From Mesorhizobium sp. WSM2240 (GTDB lineage Bacteria > Pseudomonadota > Alphaproteobacteria > Rhizobiales > Rhizobiaceae): a DNA stretch of 64,000 bases. Where the stretch lies: positions 5,570,501-5,634,500 of the forward strand of contig NZ_CP159253.1 of assembly GCF_040438645.1 (NCBI RefSeq), written 5' to 3'. Position numbers and translations under genes: made by a program. A model generated the notes under the pieces. It saw only the letters and a program-made list of their open reading frames with translations, was not told where the DNA came from and did no database searches. Positions 58,398 to 63,215 of this stretch are shown piece after piece (position 1 is the first letter of the stretch; every line of letters begins with the position of its first letter).

Positions 58398-58574
58398 CTA
58401 GCACTGGCCGATATTCGGCACGCACACCCCGGCGCAGCCGCCGCCGAACGGCAGGCACGCGCCGACGCAGCACCGGCCTGGTCCGCAGCAGTCGGAAGGC
58501 GCGATGCCCGCTGTTTCGTCCCGCCCTTTGTTCATCTGTCGGGCGACAGGCTTGGCCTGGATTGGAAACTTCAT
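58398..58574 (-). CDS. Cys-rich RiPP-like precursor peptide A (58 aa, 8 Cys)
   Basis: A 58-residue peptide with a strong ribosome site (AGAGGAGA, six bases before ATG). The N-terminal half (MKFPIQAKPVARQMNKG, then RDETAGIAPSD) is Cys-free and leader-like. The C-terminal half is Gly/Cys-rich with Cys at 29, 30, 35, 36, 40, 47, 51 and 58; CCGPGRCC and GGGCAGVC are visible, and the last residue is Cys. The first 12 residues match peptide B and a third peptide at 58948. It lies on the strand of the subtilase at 59179, the last member of the group. A role as substrate of that protease is inference. Confidence 0.8.
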   Translation of the reverse strand: MKFPIQAKPVARQMNKGRDETAGIAPSDCCGPGRCCVGACLPFGGGCAGVCVPNIGQC

Positions 58575-58672
58575 GGCAGTTCTCCTCTGAACCGGCTCGG
58601 GATGCACGGTTTGCTTCGAGAGACCCTATTGAGGAAGGGTCTGGATATCGCTCCCGCGGCGATACCTTTAAG

Positions 58673-58885
58673 CTAGAGACAATCCATGCAGTCGCTTGCC
58701 CCGATACCTGCGAAGCAGGCGATGCAAGCTGCCGGTCCCGCAGCGCATGCGGTGACGCATGCGGCTACGGAGGCGGCGCACCTGATGCCCTTCCAGATGT
58801 CGCACCCCGACGATCTTACCGCACCATTGAATGGATCGGCACTCCTGCCACGGACGACAGTAGGTGCTTGGTTAGGAAGTCTCAT
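58673..58885 (-). CDS. Cys-rich RiPP-like precursor peptide B (70 aa, 8 Cys)
   Basis: A 70-residue peptide with AAGGAG upstream. Leader-like start MRLPNQAPTVVRGRSADPFN; then a Cys/Ala-rich core with Cys at 28, 36, 43, 47, 54, 57, 66 and 69 (AACVTACAAGPAACIACFAG, SDCMDCL). The N-terminus shares M-(K/R)-(F/L)-P-x-Q-A-x-x-V-x-R with peptide A, while the C-terminal halves are unrelated except in Cys richness. That split between conserved leader and variable core is a hallmark of ribosomal natural product precursors. A 7-bp hairpin (AGACCCT/AGGGTCT) lies between it and peptide A. Confidence 0.8.
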   Translation of the reverse strand: MRLPNQAPTVVRGRSADPFNGAVRSSGCDIWKGIRCAASVAACVTACAAGPAACIACFAGIGASDCMDCL

Positions 58886-58947
58886 GGTCGTTTCTCCTTC
58901 TCGGTTTCATGGCTCATGTAAAATGTGTATGCCGCGGTCGCCACGCT

Positions 58948-59124
58948 TCAGCTGAAGCAGACTGCCGCGCGGAGGCTCTCGCAGATCGACCGCAGGTCGC
59001 CTCTGATACGGCTGCATGCGAGCAGACATCGCGTGCAATCTCCGTTTGATGCGCCCGCCCGCACACGGATTGAGTCGGCAGTGACGCCCCGAAACACCGG
59101 CTGGGATTGGGCGGGCAGCCGTAT
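58948..59124 (-). CDS. Third leader-bearing Cys-containing peptide C, apparent ATA start
   Basis: A 58-codon frame that begins IRLPAQSQPVFRGVTADSIR, almost the same leader as peptides A and B, and ends with a Cys-containing core (Cys at 30, 33, 37, 48, 56; DCTRCLLACSR). The codon where ATG is expected is ATA (59122-59124), and no ATG, GTG or TTG in this frame lies upstream before a stop. Either a rare ATA start is used, or the gene lost its start recently. It begins 55 bases after the protease stop, in a frame different from a meaningless longer ORF covering the same DNA. Confidence 0.5.
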   Translation of the reverse strand: MRLPAQSQPVFRGVTADSIRVRAGASNGDCTRCLLACSRIRGDLRSICESLRAAVCFS

Positions 59125-59178
59125 GGACGGGACGCTTCGCGGCGCGGTCTTGCGTGGCGTGCGCGTTCTGCGCGGACA

Positions 59179-61152
59179 TCACGCCCGCCGCGTCCAGCTG
59201 CGCACTGCGCCGACGGTGACCGGGATGACGTCGCTAACGTCGACGGTGAAGCGGTAGACCCTGTTGGCGACGTTGGTATTGGCCGGATTGAAGAAGGACA
59301 GCTCCACGTCGTAGCAGTCCGAATCCGGGCGGCAGACCGGGCTTTTCTTGACCGCCAGACGGTCGAGGTCGAGCTGATCCCTGGTGGTGCTGCGGATCAC
59401 GTCGGCGATCTGCACCGCATTGGTCGCCGAATAGTTGATCGCCCGTTCCTCGCCGGTGACGCCGAGATTGCGAAGATCGTAATAGACGCGGTCCAGGAAG
59501 TTGGTGAGCCCCGCCGAGGATCGCTCATAGCTCTCGCGCTCGGCCGCGGCCTTCGGGACCGGGCCCAGCACATGCGCGACCAGCGGCTGTGTGGCCCAGC
59601 TGTACATGCCGCGGATCGCCGGAACGATGATCGGCACCACCTGGCCCGATTGCAGGCGCATGCTGCCGGAGATCACGCCCGGCACCGAGATCAGTTCGAC
59701 GCCCTCCACGAGCTGCACCCTGAGCGCTTCGCGCAGGCGGATGTAGGCGTCCGCCCCGAACGGCCCCATCGGCAGGATGGCGTAGATCGGCGTCGCGTCG
59801 AGGTTGAGCGTCCAGATCACCGCGGAGGCGTCATAAGGAGCGGCGTCGAGATAGGCGAGCAACTGGTTGGGCAACTGCGGATTGTTGGCCTCGGCCGGCA
59901 TCGCCTGCGCCAGCGAATCGCGCCGCGCCTCGGTGCCGAAATCGTAGCCGAGCTTGCCCAGCGCATAGACCAGCTGCGGCTTCTTGGCTTCACCGCCCTT
60001 GCCGCCGCAACCGCAGCCGCAGTCCTTGTGATCCTCGCCGGCGCTCTTGCCTTTTCCGCCGCAGCCGCAGCCGCAATCCGAAGGCTCGATCTGCCCGGAC
60101 GCGGTCACGGCCGACGGCTGCGCGAATTCCTCCACCGCTTCGGCCGCTTCGTCGCTCGACATCGCGATGCCGCCGCCTGCCGCTGGATGCGGCATCGCCG
60201 ACGGCCGGAAGGCTGCTTCGGCCGGCGCCTGCGAGACCATGTCCCGCTCAGCGAAAATATTCATCTCGGTTTTCATGTCGTGTCCCCCTCCAAGGTCTCT
60301 GATGGTTCTCTCGATATCGATGCTGCCGGCCAGGAACTTTTCGCAACCCATGGCCGCGCCTTCCGGGCATGGTGTCGCGTTGCGCAGGATCGCGGCGCGT
60401 ATGCCGTGCGGGTCGGGCGTTTCGCCTCTCGCCAATTGCGCTGCCGCGAGCAGGGCGCACACGCCCGGCACGTAGGGCGCGGCGAAGCTCGTCCCGCTCT
60501 TGGCCACCGTGCCGCCGCCGGGCGCCGCGCCCAAAACCTCCATGCCCGGCGCCAGCACCCCCTGGCTCGCATAGGCCGCGCCCCAATTGCTGGAGGCGAG
60601 CGGCGCGCCGTCGTGGCCCATCGCGCCGACCGCCAGAACCGAGGGCGCCGCCGCCGGAATGTGCAGGCACTCGCAGCCGTCGTTGCCTGCCGCCGCCACG
60701 ATCAGCACGTTGCGCCTGAGGCAGGTCTCCACGGCCTGCGCCAGGATCGGCTCCGCCAGGCCAGACGGCGTCAGCTGGCCGCCGCTGATGTTGATGATGT
60801 GCGCGCCGTGCTCGACCGCAAGCAGGATCGCCCGCGCCAGGTCGAGCTGCGAGCAAGTCAGCCCGCTGCCCGCATCGGAGAAGATCGGCGCGATCAGCCC
60901 CCGGCAGGCCGGCGCGATGCCGCGCACCGGGCTGCCCGGCTGGCCGAAGATGACGCTGGCGACATGGGTGCCATGCGCCAGCGCCCGCCCGCCGCCGCTT
61001 CCCGCCGCCAGCGTCGGAAGCTCGGTCAGCTTCGCCCCTGCAAAACACGGATGCGCGAGATCCACCGGCCCGTCCAGCACCGCGATCGTGATCCGCTCGT
61101 CGCCGCCCGGCAGCGCCCTTTCCAGTTCCGCATAGGTCTTCGACCCCTGCAC
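59179..61152 (-). CDS. PatA/PatG-type subtilisin-like maturation protease
   Basis: A 657-residue protein starting at GTG 61152 (GGGGAG seven bases upstream). Residues 20-290 are a subtilase with catalytic D27 (AVLDGPVD), H63 (HGTHVAS), oxyanion N157 (AAAGNDG) and S222 (SGTSFAAP). A linker holds two DCGCGCGGKG copies at 359-368 and 377-386. Residues about 392-657 match the C-terminal domain of cyanobactin PatA/PatG proteases (VYALGKLGYDFGTEARRDSL, IWTLNLDATPIYAILPMGPF, SGQVVPIIVPAIRGMYSW). There is no signal peptide. Peptides C, B and A follow on the same strand, so it probably cuts their leaders. Confidence 0.85.
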   Translation of the reverse strand: MQGSKTYAELERALPGGDERITIAVLDGPVDLAHPCFAGAKLTELPTLAAGSGGGRALAHGTHVASVIFGQPGSPVRGIAPACRGLIAPIFSDAGSGLTCSQLDLARAILLAVEHGAHIINISGGQLTPSGLAEPILAQAVETCLRRNVLIVAAAGNDGCECLHIPAAAPSVLAVGAMGHDGAPLASSNWGAAYASQGVLAPGMEVLGAAPGGGTVAKSGTSFAAPYVPGVCALLAAAQLARGETPDPHGIRAAILRNATPCPEGAAMGCEKFLAGSIDIERTIRDLGGGHDMKTEMNIFAERDMVSQAPAEAAFRPSAMPHPAAGGGIAMSSDEAAEAVEEFAQPSAVTASGQIEPSDCGCGCGGKGKSAGEDHKDCGCGCGGKGGEAKKPQLVYALGKLGYDFGTEARRDSLAQAMPAEANNPQLPNQLLAYLDAAPYDASAVIWTLNLDATPIYAILPMGPFGADAYIRLREALRVQLVEGVELISVPGVISGSMRLQSGQVVPIIVPAIRGMYSWATQPLVAHVLGPVPKAAAERESYERSSAGLTNFLDRVYYDLRNLGVTGEERAINYSATNAVQIADVIRSTTRDQLDLDRLAVKKSPVCRPDSDCYDVELSFFNPANTNVANRVYRFTVDVSDVIPVTVGAVRSWTRRA

Positions 61153-61365: not shown

Positions 61366-61406
61366 CGCGCTTGCCGCACTGCACCGCCCCTGCTACATGC
61401 GCGCGC

Positions 61407-63215
61407 ATGACAACACCCCTCTCCCACATCCGCAATTTCTCCATCGTCGCCCATATCGACCACGGCAAGTCGACGCTCGCCGACCGCCTGATCCAGTCGA
61501 CTGGCGGTCTGGAGCTGCGCGACATGAAGGAGCAGGTGCTCGATTCGATGGACATCGAGCGCGAGCGCGGCATCACCATCAAGGCCCAGACCGTGCGCCT
61601 CAACTACCGCGCCAAAAACGGCGAGGACTATGTGCTGAACCTCATCGACACGCCCGGCCATGTCGACTTCGCCTACGAGGTGTCGCGCTCGCTCTCGGCC
61701 TGCGAGGGTTCTCTCCTTGTCGTCGACGCCTCTCAAGGGGTCGAGGCGCAGACGCTGGCCAACGTATACCAGGCCATCGACAACAACCACGAGATCGTCG
61801 TGGTCTTGAACAAGATCGACCTGCCCGCCGCCGAGCCCGAGCGCATCAAGGAGCAGGTCGAAGAGGTCATCGGCCTCGACGCCTCCCAGGCCGTCTACAT
61901 CTCCGCCAAGACCGGCCTCGGCATACCCGACGTGCTGGAGGCGATCGTCAACCAGCTTCCGCCGCCGCGCGAGGGCGACATCAACGCGCCGCTCAAGGCC
62001 ATGCTGGTCGACAGCTGGTACGACACCTATCTCGGCGTCATCGTTCTGGTCCGCATCATCGACGGCCGCCTGAAAAAGGGCCAGACCATCCGCATGATGG
62101 AGACCGGCGCCAGATATCTGGTCGAGCGCACCGGCGTCTTCACCCCCAAGATGATCACCGCCGAAGAGCTCGGTCCCGGCGAGTTCGGCTTCTTCACCGG
62201 CTCGATCAAGGAGGTGGCCGACACCCGCGTCGGCGACACCATCACCGAGGACAAGCGCCCGACCGCCGCCGCTCTCCCCGGCTTCAAGCCGGCGCAGCCG
62301 GTGGTGTTCTGCGGCCTGTTCCCGGTCGACGCCGCCGACTTCGAGGATCTGCGCGCCGCCATGGGCAAGCTGCGCCTCAACGACGCCTCCTTCTCCTTCG
62401 AGATGGAGACCTCGGCCGCGCTAGGCTTCGGCTTCCGCTGCGGCTTTTTGGGTCTGCTCCATCTCGAGATCATCCAGGAGCGGCTGGAGCGCGAGTTCAA
62501 CCTCGACCTGATCGCCACCGCGCCATCCGTCGTCTACCGGATGAACCTCACCGACGGCACGGTGAAGGAACTGCACAACCCGGCCGACATGCCGGACCTC
62601 GTCAAGATCTCCTCGATCGAGGAGCCGTGGATCCGCGCCACCATACTCACCCCCGACGATTATCTCGGCGGCATTCTGAAGCTCTGCCAGGACAGGCGCG
62701 GCATACAGGCCGACCTCTCCTATGTCGGAAAGCGCGCAATGCTCATCTACGATCTGCCGCTCAACGAGGTGGTGTTCGATTTCTACGACCGGCTGAAGTC
62801 GATCTCCAAGGGCTATGCCTCCTTCGACTACCAGCTCACCGACTACCGCGAGGGCGACCTGGTGAAGATGTCGATCCTGGTCAATGACGAGCCGGTCGAC
62901 GCGCTTTCCATGCTGGTCCACCGCTCGGCGGCGGAAAAGCGCGGCCGCGCCATGTGCGAGAAGCTCAAGGAGCTGATCCCGCAGCACATGTTCAAGATTC
63001 CGATCCAGGCGGCGATCGGCGGCCGCATCGTCGCCCGCGAGACCATTTCCGCCCTGCGCAAGGACGTGACGGCCAAATGTTACGGCGGCGACGTCACCCG
63101 CAAGCGCAAGCTGCTGGAAAAGCAGAAGGAGGGCAAGAAGCGCATGCGCCAGTTCGGCAAGGTCGACATTCCCCAGGCGGCGTTTATTGAAGCGCTGAAG
63201 ATGGGGGACAATTAA
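61407..63215 (+). CDS. lepA: LepA / elongation factor 4
   Basis: A 602-residue translational GTPase that acts on stalled ribosomes and in 30S maturation. G1 is [18 protein letters not shown]3 is [16 protein letters not shown], and G4 is [20 protein letters not shown]. Domains II-IV follow, and the LepA-specific C-terminus reads [43 protein letters not shown] 61407 is chosen because a 12-codon extension has no ribosome site. Confidence 0.97.

Follow-up and report, generated by a model that had tools for sequence, protein, structure and literature searches.

A PatA-type protease and its neighboring cysteine-rich leader peptides in Mesorhizobium: a probable minimal precursor-peptide system of the cyanobactin type

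What might a cyanobactin-type maturation protease act upon in a rhizobial genome, where no ring-forming enzyme stands beside it? The question is raised by a locus of Mesorhizobium sp. WSM2240, at positions 58,398 to 61,152 of a 64,000-nt stretch of contig NZ_CP159253.1 (positions 5,570,501 to 5,634,500 of the forward strand; this whole stretch is referred to as the window). Here a subtilase gene is followed on the same strand by genes for short, cysteine-rich peptides. A first-pass annotation of the sequence had left two options, namely that the peptides are only cleaved and oxidized to disulfides, or that their modifying enzymes lie elsewhere in the genome. We consider it probable that the locus is a minimal precursor-peptide system of the cyanobactin type without cyclizing or heterocycle-forming enzymes, in which cleavage would be followed by disulfide formation and there would be no ring closure.

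The protease scores 675 bits (cut-off 421) with TIGR03895, the profile of PatA/PatG cyanobactin maturation proteases, aligning to model positions 1-604 of 606, and contains the Pfam domains Peptidase_S8, PatG_D, and PatG_C. It is the one match above this cut-off in the genome, the three others being partial subtilase matches. Its parts are:

59179-61152, minus strand: open reading frame (ORF) of the maturation protease, 657 amino acids (aa), GTG start
60274..61107, minus strand: PatA-like subtilase catalytic domain, residues 16-293, with D27, H60, and S222
60055..60096, minus strand: substrate-like motif GQIEPSDCGCGCGG in the interdomain linker, residues 353-366
59191..59970, minus strand: PatG_D/PatG_C domain of unknown function (DUF), residues 395-654

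The earlier label "PatA/PatG-type" fits the family and the C-terminal domain, which scores 195 bits against the PatG DUF (PDB 4uvq), but it is too loose for the catalytic domain. Its nearest solved structures are PDB 4h6v, 3zxx, 3zxy, and 4h6w (316-324 bits), whereas the PatG macrocyclase reaches only 155-159 bits. The macrocyclase insert is also absent, because Asp27 and His60 are 33 residues apart, compared with 83-100 in PatG-like ORFs (7 of 19 measurable; the pattern gave no value for the other 12, and values of 14-19 in nine cysteine-rich rows, where we read the wrong Asp as having been picked). Judged by its sequence, the window protease is of the PatA type and not of the PatG macrocyclase type. 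Of the catalytic triad first given as D27/H63/S222, the outer two residues stand and the histidine does not: by the subtilisin rule, which we assume holds here, the catalytic residue is the first H of HGTH, H60, which is invariant across 42 aligned proteases, whereas H63 is replaced by E in three relatives (loci L002-L004).

Downstream of the protease lie two intact peptide genes and the remains of a third:

58948..59121, minus strand: remnant of peptide gene C, between protease and gene B; leader RLPAQSQPVFR and a 5-Cys core still readable
58894..58899, minus strand: ribosome-binding-like site of B, AAGGAG
58673..58885, minus strand: peptide B, 70 aa, 8 Cys, ATG start; leader MRLPNQAPTVVR, site AVRSS, putative core from GCDIWK
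58583..58587 (approximate), minus strand: ribosome-binding-like site of A, AGGAG
58398..58574, minus strand: peptide A, 58 aa, 8 Cys; leader MKFPIQAKPVAR, site GIAPS, putative core DCCGPGRCCVGACLPFGGGCAGVCVPNIGQC

For A, the ATG at 58574 (AGAGGAG upstream) was preferred over the GTG at 58607. All three copies carry the leader LPxQxxPVxR, with F for L in A and T for the second P in B (LPNQAPTVVR), and a profile of 20 diverse peptides finds just these three places in the genome at E < 0.01, two others (E 0.7 and 9.7) being noise. The peptides had been described as having 8, 8, and 5 cysteines; the two 8-Cys genes are indeed intact, but the 5-Cys one is a frameshifted remnant. Its intact counterpart in L007 encodes 80 aa with 6 Cys from an ATG that overlaps the protease stop. 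Compared with that gene, the window copy has 11 nt fewer near its 5′ end and an Arg in place of one Cys, and because of the missing 11 nt its leader-core frame has no ATG, GTG, or TTG ahead of the leader. Neither A, ending in NIGQC, nor B, ending in CMDCL, has a C-terminal recognition sequence of the AYDG, SYDG, or AGDD type after the core. Scans against the Pfam and NCBIfam sets placed the window peptides in no family above cut-off, promoter and terminator searches gave nothing above shuffled sequences, and Rfam and tRNA scans of the window gave no matches.

Protease and peptides keep company well beyond this locus. Among 297 genomes of the window's family, the protease is found above cut-off in 12 and peptide family A in 8, all 8 inside those 12 (Fisher p = 4e-13), with family A within about 1 kb of the protease by coordinates. 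Such exclusive co-occurrence is more than chance would give. The arrangement had been called unusual for a rhizobial genome, which is fair insofar as the protease is sporadic there, but the system itself spans six phyla. In 79 named loci from one GTDB genome scan (the best 80 of 242 relatives), ORFs with a strict leader and a ribosome-binding-like site number 81 in the 230 kb that directly follow the protease and 13 in the other 2,520 kb, the density being 68-fold higher downstream (leader and site patterns are our own regular expressions, partly fitted to the data counted). At least four Cys follow the leader in 59 of these 81.

A protease followed by cysteine-rich peptides, free of YcaO within up to 10 kb, occurs in 33 of the 79 loci, near relatives such as four Janthinobacterium and several rhizobia included (Pseudomonadota 19, Cyanobacteriota 9, Bacillota 2, and Planctomycetota, Acidobacteriota, and Gemmatimonadota 1 each). 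A simple rule, with L057 and L119 added by hand, had returned 39 such loci, from which six were set aside: L071, L074, L075, L079, and L105, where a 4-Cys peptide beside Cys-free precursors was read as PatB-like, and L115, whose protease lies within the canonical clade described below. The broader leader pattern was unmatched within 5 kb downstream in 20 of the 79 loci; on looser inspection of 13 of these, L057 and L119 proved to have plausible peptides, and L058, L060, and L061 candidates with a divergent leader. The last of these, from Komarekiella, has five tandem peptides beside a PatA-like protease, with a degenerate leader that lacks the PVxR part and, in some, a Cys inside the leader.

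The number of cysteines after the leader is even in every one of 73 cysteine-rich peptides (4 in 10, 6 in 34, 8 in 27, 10 in 2; odd in 0) and, counted by cluster, in 31 of 31 (p = 9e-10), six being the commonest modal count (17 clusters). These 73 were kept from 77 collected, the others having no leader match, fewer than 3 Cys, a duplicate, or an X; peptides of the window, L002, L003, L004, L012, L057, L119, and L123-L125 were entered by hand. The L061 peptides (5, 7, and 9 Cys in total), on which the leader pattern fails, stand outside the count, and we read each as having one Cys in the leader region. The sole odd-count peptide of the window is the broken C. Database proteins are even in 77 of 80 scored, and in 47 of 49 new ones, within a set that was found by a profile built from even-numbered peptides and in which at least six of 50 new proteins repeat locus peptides. 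Odd counts occur in P0054 (7), P0066 (9, of which one follows the leader immediately), and P0026 (9, in a protein extended beyond the usual end). Precursors of YcaO loci with at least 3 Cys, by comparison, have 3, 3, 3, 5, 8, and 8 (L076, with 6, is a mixed locus). A strictly even number points to pairing, since neither heterocyclization nor metal binding gives a reason for it, and suggests that the cysteines of the cores are joined as disulfides.

The peptides also carry what looks like the site of cleavage. According to PMC10885120, cleavage by PatA enzymes falls after G(L/V)E(A/P)S, and a loose form of this motif stands ahead of the first core Cys in 64 of the 73 peptides, with P or A at P2 in 41 (window A, for example, has GIAPS-DCC, and L049 has GVEPS-GCN). 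A copy recurs in the protease linker, where a CGCGG stretch follows at once: the window reads GQIEPS-DCGCGCGG, canonical PatA VEAS-GCGCGG, and L101 GVEPS-GGCGCGG. A loose pattern, some of whose matches are false, picks it out in 72 of 79 proteases, the linker not being delimitable in 5 more of 84. Given that the linker holds the same kind of site as the substrates (GQIEPS-DCGCGC in the window), the protease probably either cuts itself or keeps its own site in the active site until a substrate arrives. Linker and substrate covary at P2: L002, L003, L004, L123, and L124 have Q there in the linker (L123 reads QQ, not QS), and so do all 9 peptides of those five loci, against 1 of 64 elsewhere, with L125 an inexact case (linker IMS, peptide VPS). 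As the five Q loci form one clade (support of 100 in the Shimodaira-Hasegawa-like approximate likelihood-ratio test, SH-aLRT), this covariation may represent one evolutionary event.

Is the rest of the machinery then to be sought at a distance? The first-pass annotation had seen no YcaO cyclodehydratase, radical SAM enzyme, or lanthionine synthetase beside the protease, and the genome search agrees. The only YcaO of the genome is on another contig (G000 contig C4:400033-400986, L043), where it adjoins an ORF read as TfuA-like; the single SPASM match is about 3 Mb away, and no LanC was found by genome search. The YcaO/TfuA-like pair is a candidate for a separate locus of ribosomally synthesized and post-translationally modified peptides (RiPPs). 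Of the 12 system-bearing rhizobial genomes, each searched as a whole, 5 have a YcaO and 7 do not, 9 have a SPASM match, and 0 have LanC (LanC was present in 1 of all 20 genomes searched, G323); all three are missing from G130 (89% complete), G177, and G234. Because each is absent from some system-bearing rhizobial genomes, none of YcaO, LanC, and SPASM is a constant partner. Of the two options originally left, cleavage and oxidation alone is thus the better supported, by the even counts and by the genomes free of YcaO.

Among 83 loci, 15 have a YcaO no more than about 10 kb away (some contigs end sooner), and a second, PatG-like protease was found in 19, of which 0 belong to the 33 cysteine-rich loci. 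The PatF profile TIGR04445 had no match in 20 genomes, and none in 14 controls either. When neighbor families were counted, the protease was the sole family in all 33 cysteine-rich loci. Families found in at least four loci otherwise comprised ORFs that look antisense to the protease or overlap it; lepA-region ORFs in six rhizobial loci; groups shared by L044-L047 and by L044, L047, L049, and L052; a large number of ORFs that the four Janthinobacterium loci have in common, one family of which recurs in L109 (a sigma-54 activator in L057); and an AAA_35 and a protein kinase family, each present in four cyanobacteria. Those that are neither antisense-looking nor overlapping look like neighbors retained inside a single genus, order, or phylum, the family that recurs in L109 apart. 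No shared transporter was seen among those neighbor families of the 33 loci that were identified. The three window neighbors scored in Pfam are LepA, a TetR regulator, and a homocysteine S-methyltransferase. The cassette adjoins lepA (61371-63215 of the window) both here and in L041, L044, L046, L047, L049, L050, and L052, from several rhizobial genera, and this common position suggests long vertical keeping at one ancestral site.

Selection and phylogeny bear on what the peptides are for and where the system stands. Family A has 33 database homologues with a nearly invariant core, and its pairwise dN/dS of 0.00-0.13 in the core, compared with 0.05-0.73 in the leader (seven sequences, 21 pairs, one leader value undefined), indicates strong purifying selection on the core. 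Purifying selection also acts on family B, with a mixed contrast between core and leader. Cyanobactin cores, by comparison, are hypervariable (PMC4603692, PMC4663559). Conservation of the core, as in family A, suggests a single conserved target or role and not an arms race. In an unrooted tree of 81 proteases, canonical PatA from loci with YcaO or a follower falls in one clade of 31 rows (SH-aLRT 100), which also takes in L115 and 11 other loci, with the cysteine-rich systems around it. When 7 general subtilases serve as outgroup, PatG and canonical PatA fall deep inside the cysteine-rich systems. A tree with PatG next to the outgroup nevertheless beats the unconstrained quick tree by 15 log units and is not rejected (approximately unbiased test, p-AU 0.84), so the rooting does not show that protease-only systems came first.

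The pathway that we propose would be short. The leader LPxQxxPVxR would be recognized by the single PatA-like protease, which would cut after a G[VIL]xPS-like site and so free a cysteine-rich core (31 residues in A, 44 in B), whose even-numbered cysteines would then pair to give small disulfide-rich peptides. The sequences themselves show homology, leader, site, linkage, even counts, covariation, and selection, from which we infer cleavage, self-cleavage or self-inhibition, disulfides, export, and role.

Other explanations account for parts of this evidence. The cores might belong to a classical RiPP pathway acting in trans, in which a YcaO, a radical SAM enzyme, a desulfurase, or some other enzyme modifies them before or after PatA-like cleavage. 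The genome does contain one YcaO and one SPASM match, both distant; canonical PatA acts after the PatD cyclodehydratase (PMC4259220); and two loci hint at sulfur chemistry. The protease ORFs of L084 (1928-4918(+), 997 aa) and L109 (8783-11932(+), 1050 aa, Clostridium senegalense), both with cysteine-rich leader peptides beside them, open with a domain of about 380 residues that matches Aminotran_5 above cut-off (278 and 275 bits) and is closest to NifS/IscS cysteine desulfurases (TIGR03402, 450 and 471 bits, below the cut-off of 531). We nonetheless hold modification in trans to be unlikely, as 7 of the 12 rhizobial genomes lack YcaO, all 12 lack LanC, and three lack YcaO, LanC, and SPASM alike, and as strict evenness is unexpected for heterocyclized cysteines, YcaO-locus precursors having odd counts beside their two eights. 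A metal-thiolate role, with the cores as metallothionein-like chelators trimmed by the protease and free of disulfides, would suit the high cysteine density and the CGCGCGG motifs that occur in the protease linker as well, and a copper-related role has been reported for patellamides (PMC13266932). It strikes us as a little less likely still, given that six Cys, the modal count in 17 of 31 clusters, is ill-suited to Zn-Cys4, that thiolate clusters need no even number, and that cysteine spacings vary widely between families.

That the peptides are not substrates at all, but conserved small proteins merely traveling with a housekeeping protease, we regard as very improbable. A PatB-family protein has the leader motif and is not known as a precursor, and some proteases have no visible linked peptide. 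This account has to contend, however, with a leader common to unrelated cores, a cleavage-like site beside the first Cys, linker-substrate covariation, exclusive co-occurrence, and the fact that PatE-like precursors from YcaO loci have this leader pattern too.

The disulfide pathway that we prefer has its own difficulties. Proteases without linked peptides, which the first-pass annotation had named as grounds for refuting its reading, do occur: in eight of the loci inspected more loosely (L066, L077, L090, L091, L108, L116, L120, L122) no convincing linked peptide was seen, so that the pairing, for all the 68-fold density of the leader downstream, is strong but not universal. The site of peptide B, AVRSS, deviates from GxxPS; in the close B pair of window and L007, core dN/dS (0.33) exceeds that of the leader (0.06); and P0054 has 7 Cys. 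The predicted fold of peptide A, with two strands, is weak (predicted local distance difference test score, pLDDT, 66; predicted template-modeling score 0.33). No dedicated exporter was found, although disulfides in a Gram-negative need export or an oxidizing site. L076 (Tolypothrix campylonemoides) is mixed, with a 6-Cys leader peptide, a PatG-like protease, and a weak YcaO match. The desulfurase-like fusion may mean that the clostridial branch has a sulfur step; it makes it less sure that the cores always stay unmodified, and on its account we lowered our confidence slightly, within what we still call probable. Two refinements also fell away. A pseudosubstrate seated in the active site could not be read from the model of the window protease, in which residues 290-388, the linker, are disordered (pLDDT < 50). 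The DUF as leader binder is unsupported by nuclear magnetic resonance data, in which PatG-DUF, tested alone, did not bind PatE′ (PMC4259220).

More tentatively, and with rather less than even confidence, we suggest that these loci represent a large undescribed class of ribosomal peptides, in at least six phyla, made with a leader, one PatA-type protease, and disulfides. The cyanobactin machinery may derive from this class by the addition of PatG and PatD, the protease may be controlled by itself through its linker site, and the clostridial desulfurase may add a sulfur step.

The scan also brought up loci of other kinds. Cyanobactin clusters were described in 2015 as confined to cyanobacteria (PMC4663559); canonical-looking loci were seen outside them in L121 (Bradyrhizobium sp. 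DOA9) and L117 (a Roseobacter metagenome-assembled genome), each combining YcaO, PatA, and PatG with a PatE-like precursor that contains LAELSEETL or LAEMSEETL. A second new-looking class, in L071, L074, L075, L079, and L105, has the leader PKQxxPVER or PKQSAPVIR, a GVEAS-like site, and no YcaO; its cores are Cys-free and amphipathic-looking (e.g. AWYDTLLEVAKKVAPIATTVLGSL) and lie about 2.2-6.4 kb from the start of the PatA-like protease match. In L106, a protein of the PatB/AcyB/McaB family (TIGR04220, 134 bits) opens with the LPxQxxPVxR leader, which hints that PatB itself may be bound or processed by PatA; other cyanobactin loci have similar proteins.

How, then, does the window system compare with those already known? 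No published description of it was found in the full-text literature searched, which covers few subscription papers or preprints. The protease belongs to a known family. If the cores are indeed disulfide-rich, their even cysteine numbers across phyla point to a reservoir of bacterial peptides that fall into no Pfam or NCBIfam family of the scanned sets above cut-off and that YcaO-centered genome mining would miss, and the substrate-like linker site offers a direct idea of how PatA may be regulated. According to PMC4259220, the role of the PatA/PatG DUF is an open question and PatB and PatC are likewise unexplained. Since DUF, protease, and leader persist here without cyclodehydratase or macrocyclase, the DUF is more likely to serve leader-directed proteolysis, or something common to all these systems, than heterocycles or ring closure.

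With the cyanobactin pathway of the patellamide type (PatA, PatD, PatE, PatG), the window-type system shares a PatA-family protease with its DUF, the leader LPxQxxPVxR, the site G(V/I/L)x(P/A)S, and the linker site. Unlike that pathway, it has no PatD/YcaO, no PatG macrocyclase, and no C-terminal follower, and by these usual features it is not a cyanobactin system. Heterocycle-free cyanobactins of the sphaerocyclamide and anacyclamide/piricyclamide type come nearer, with a PatA-like protease, the leader pattern, and no need of a cyclodehydratase. Their precursors, however, end in a follower such as AGDDAE, unlike the window-type peptides, and PatG, PatB, PatC, and a prenyltransferase are all still present in the sphaerocyclamide cluster, whose product is a prenylated cyclic peptide (PMC6162287). 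Family A weakly resembles the NCBIfam "cyanobactin class RiPP" profile NF042906 (Moor_cyan_RiPP), its scores of 10.4 and 12.9 bits falling far short of the 75 bits required. In contrast to the short, hypervariable cores of cyanobactins, the window-type cores are longer, rich in cysteine, strongly conserved in family A, and spread over six phyla. By spacing alone, families C and D (CxxCxxxC...CxxxCxxx(x)C), from which A and B differ, resemble what we take to be alpha-hairpinin-like stapled helical hairpins.

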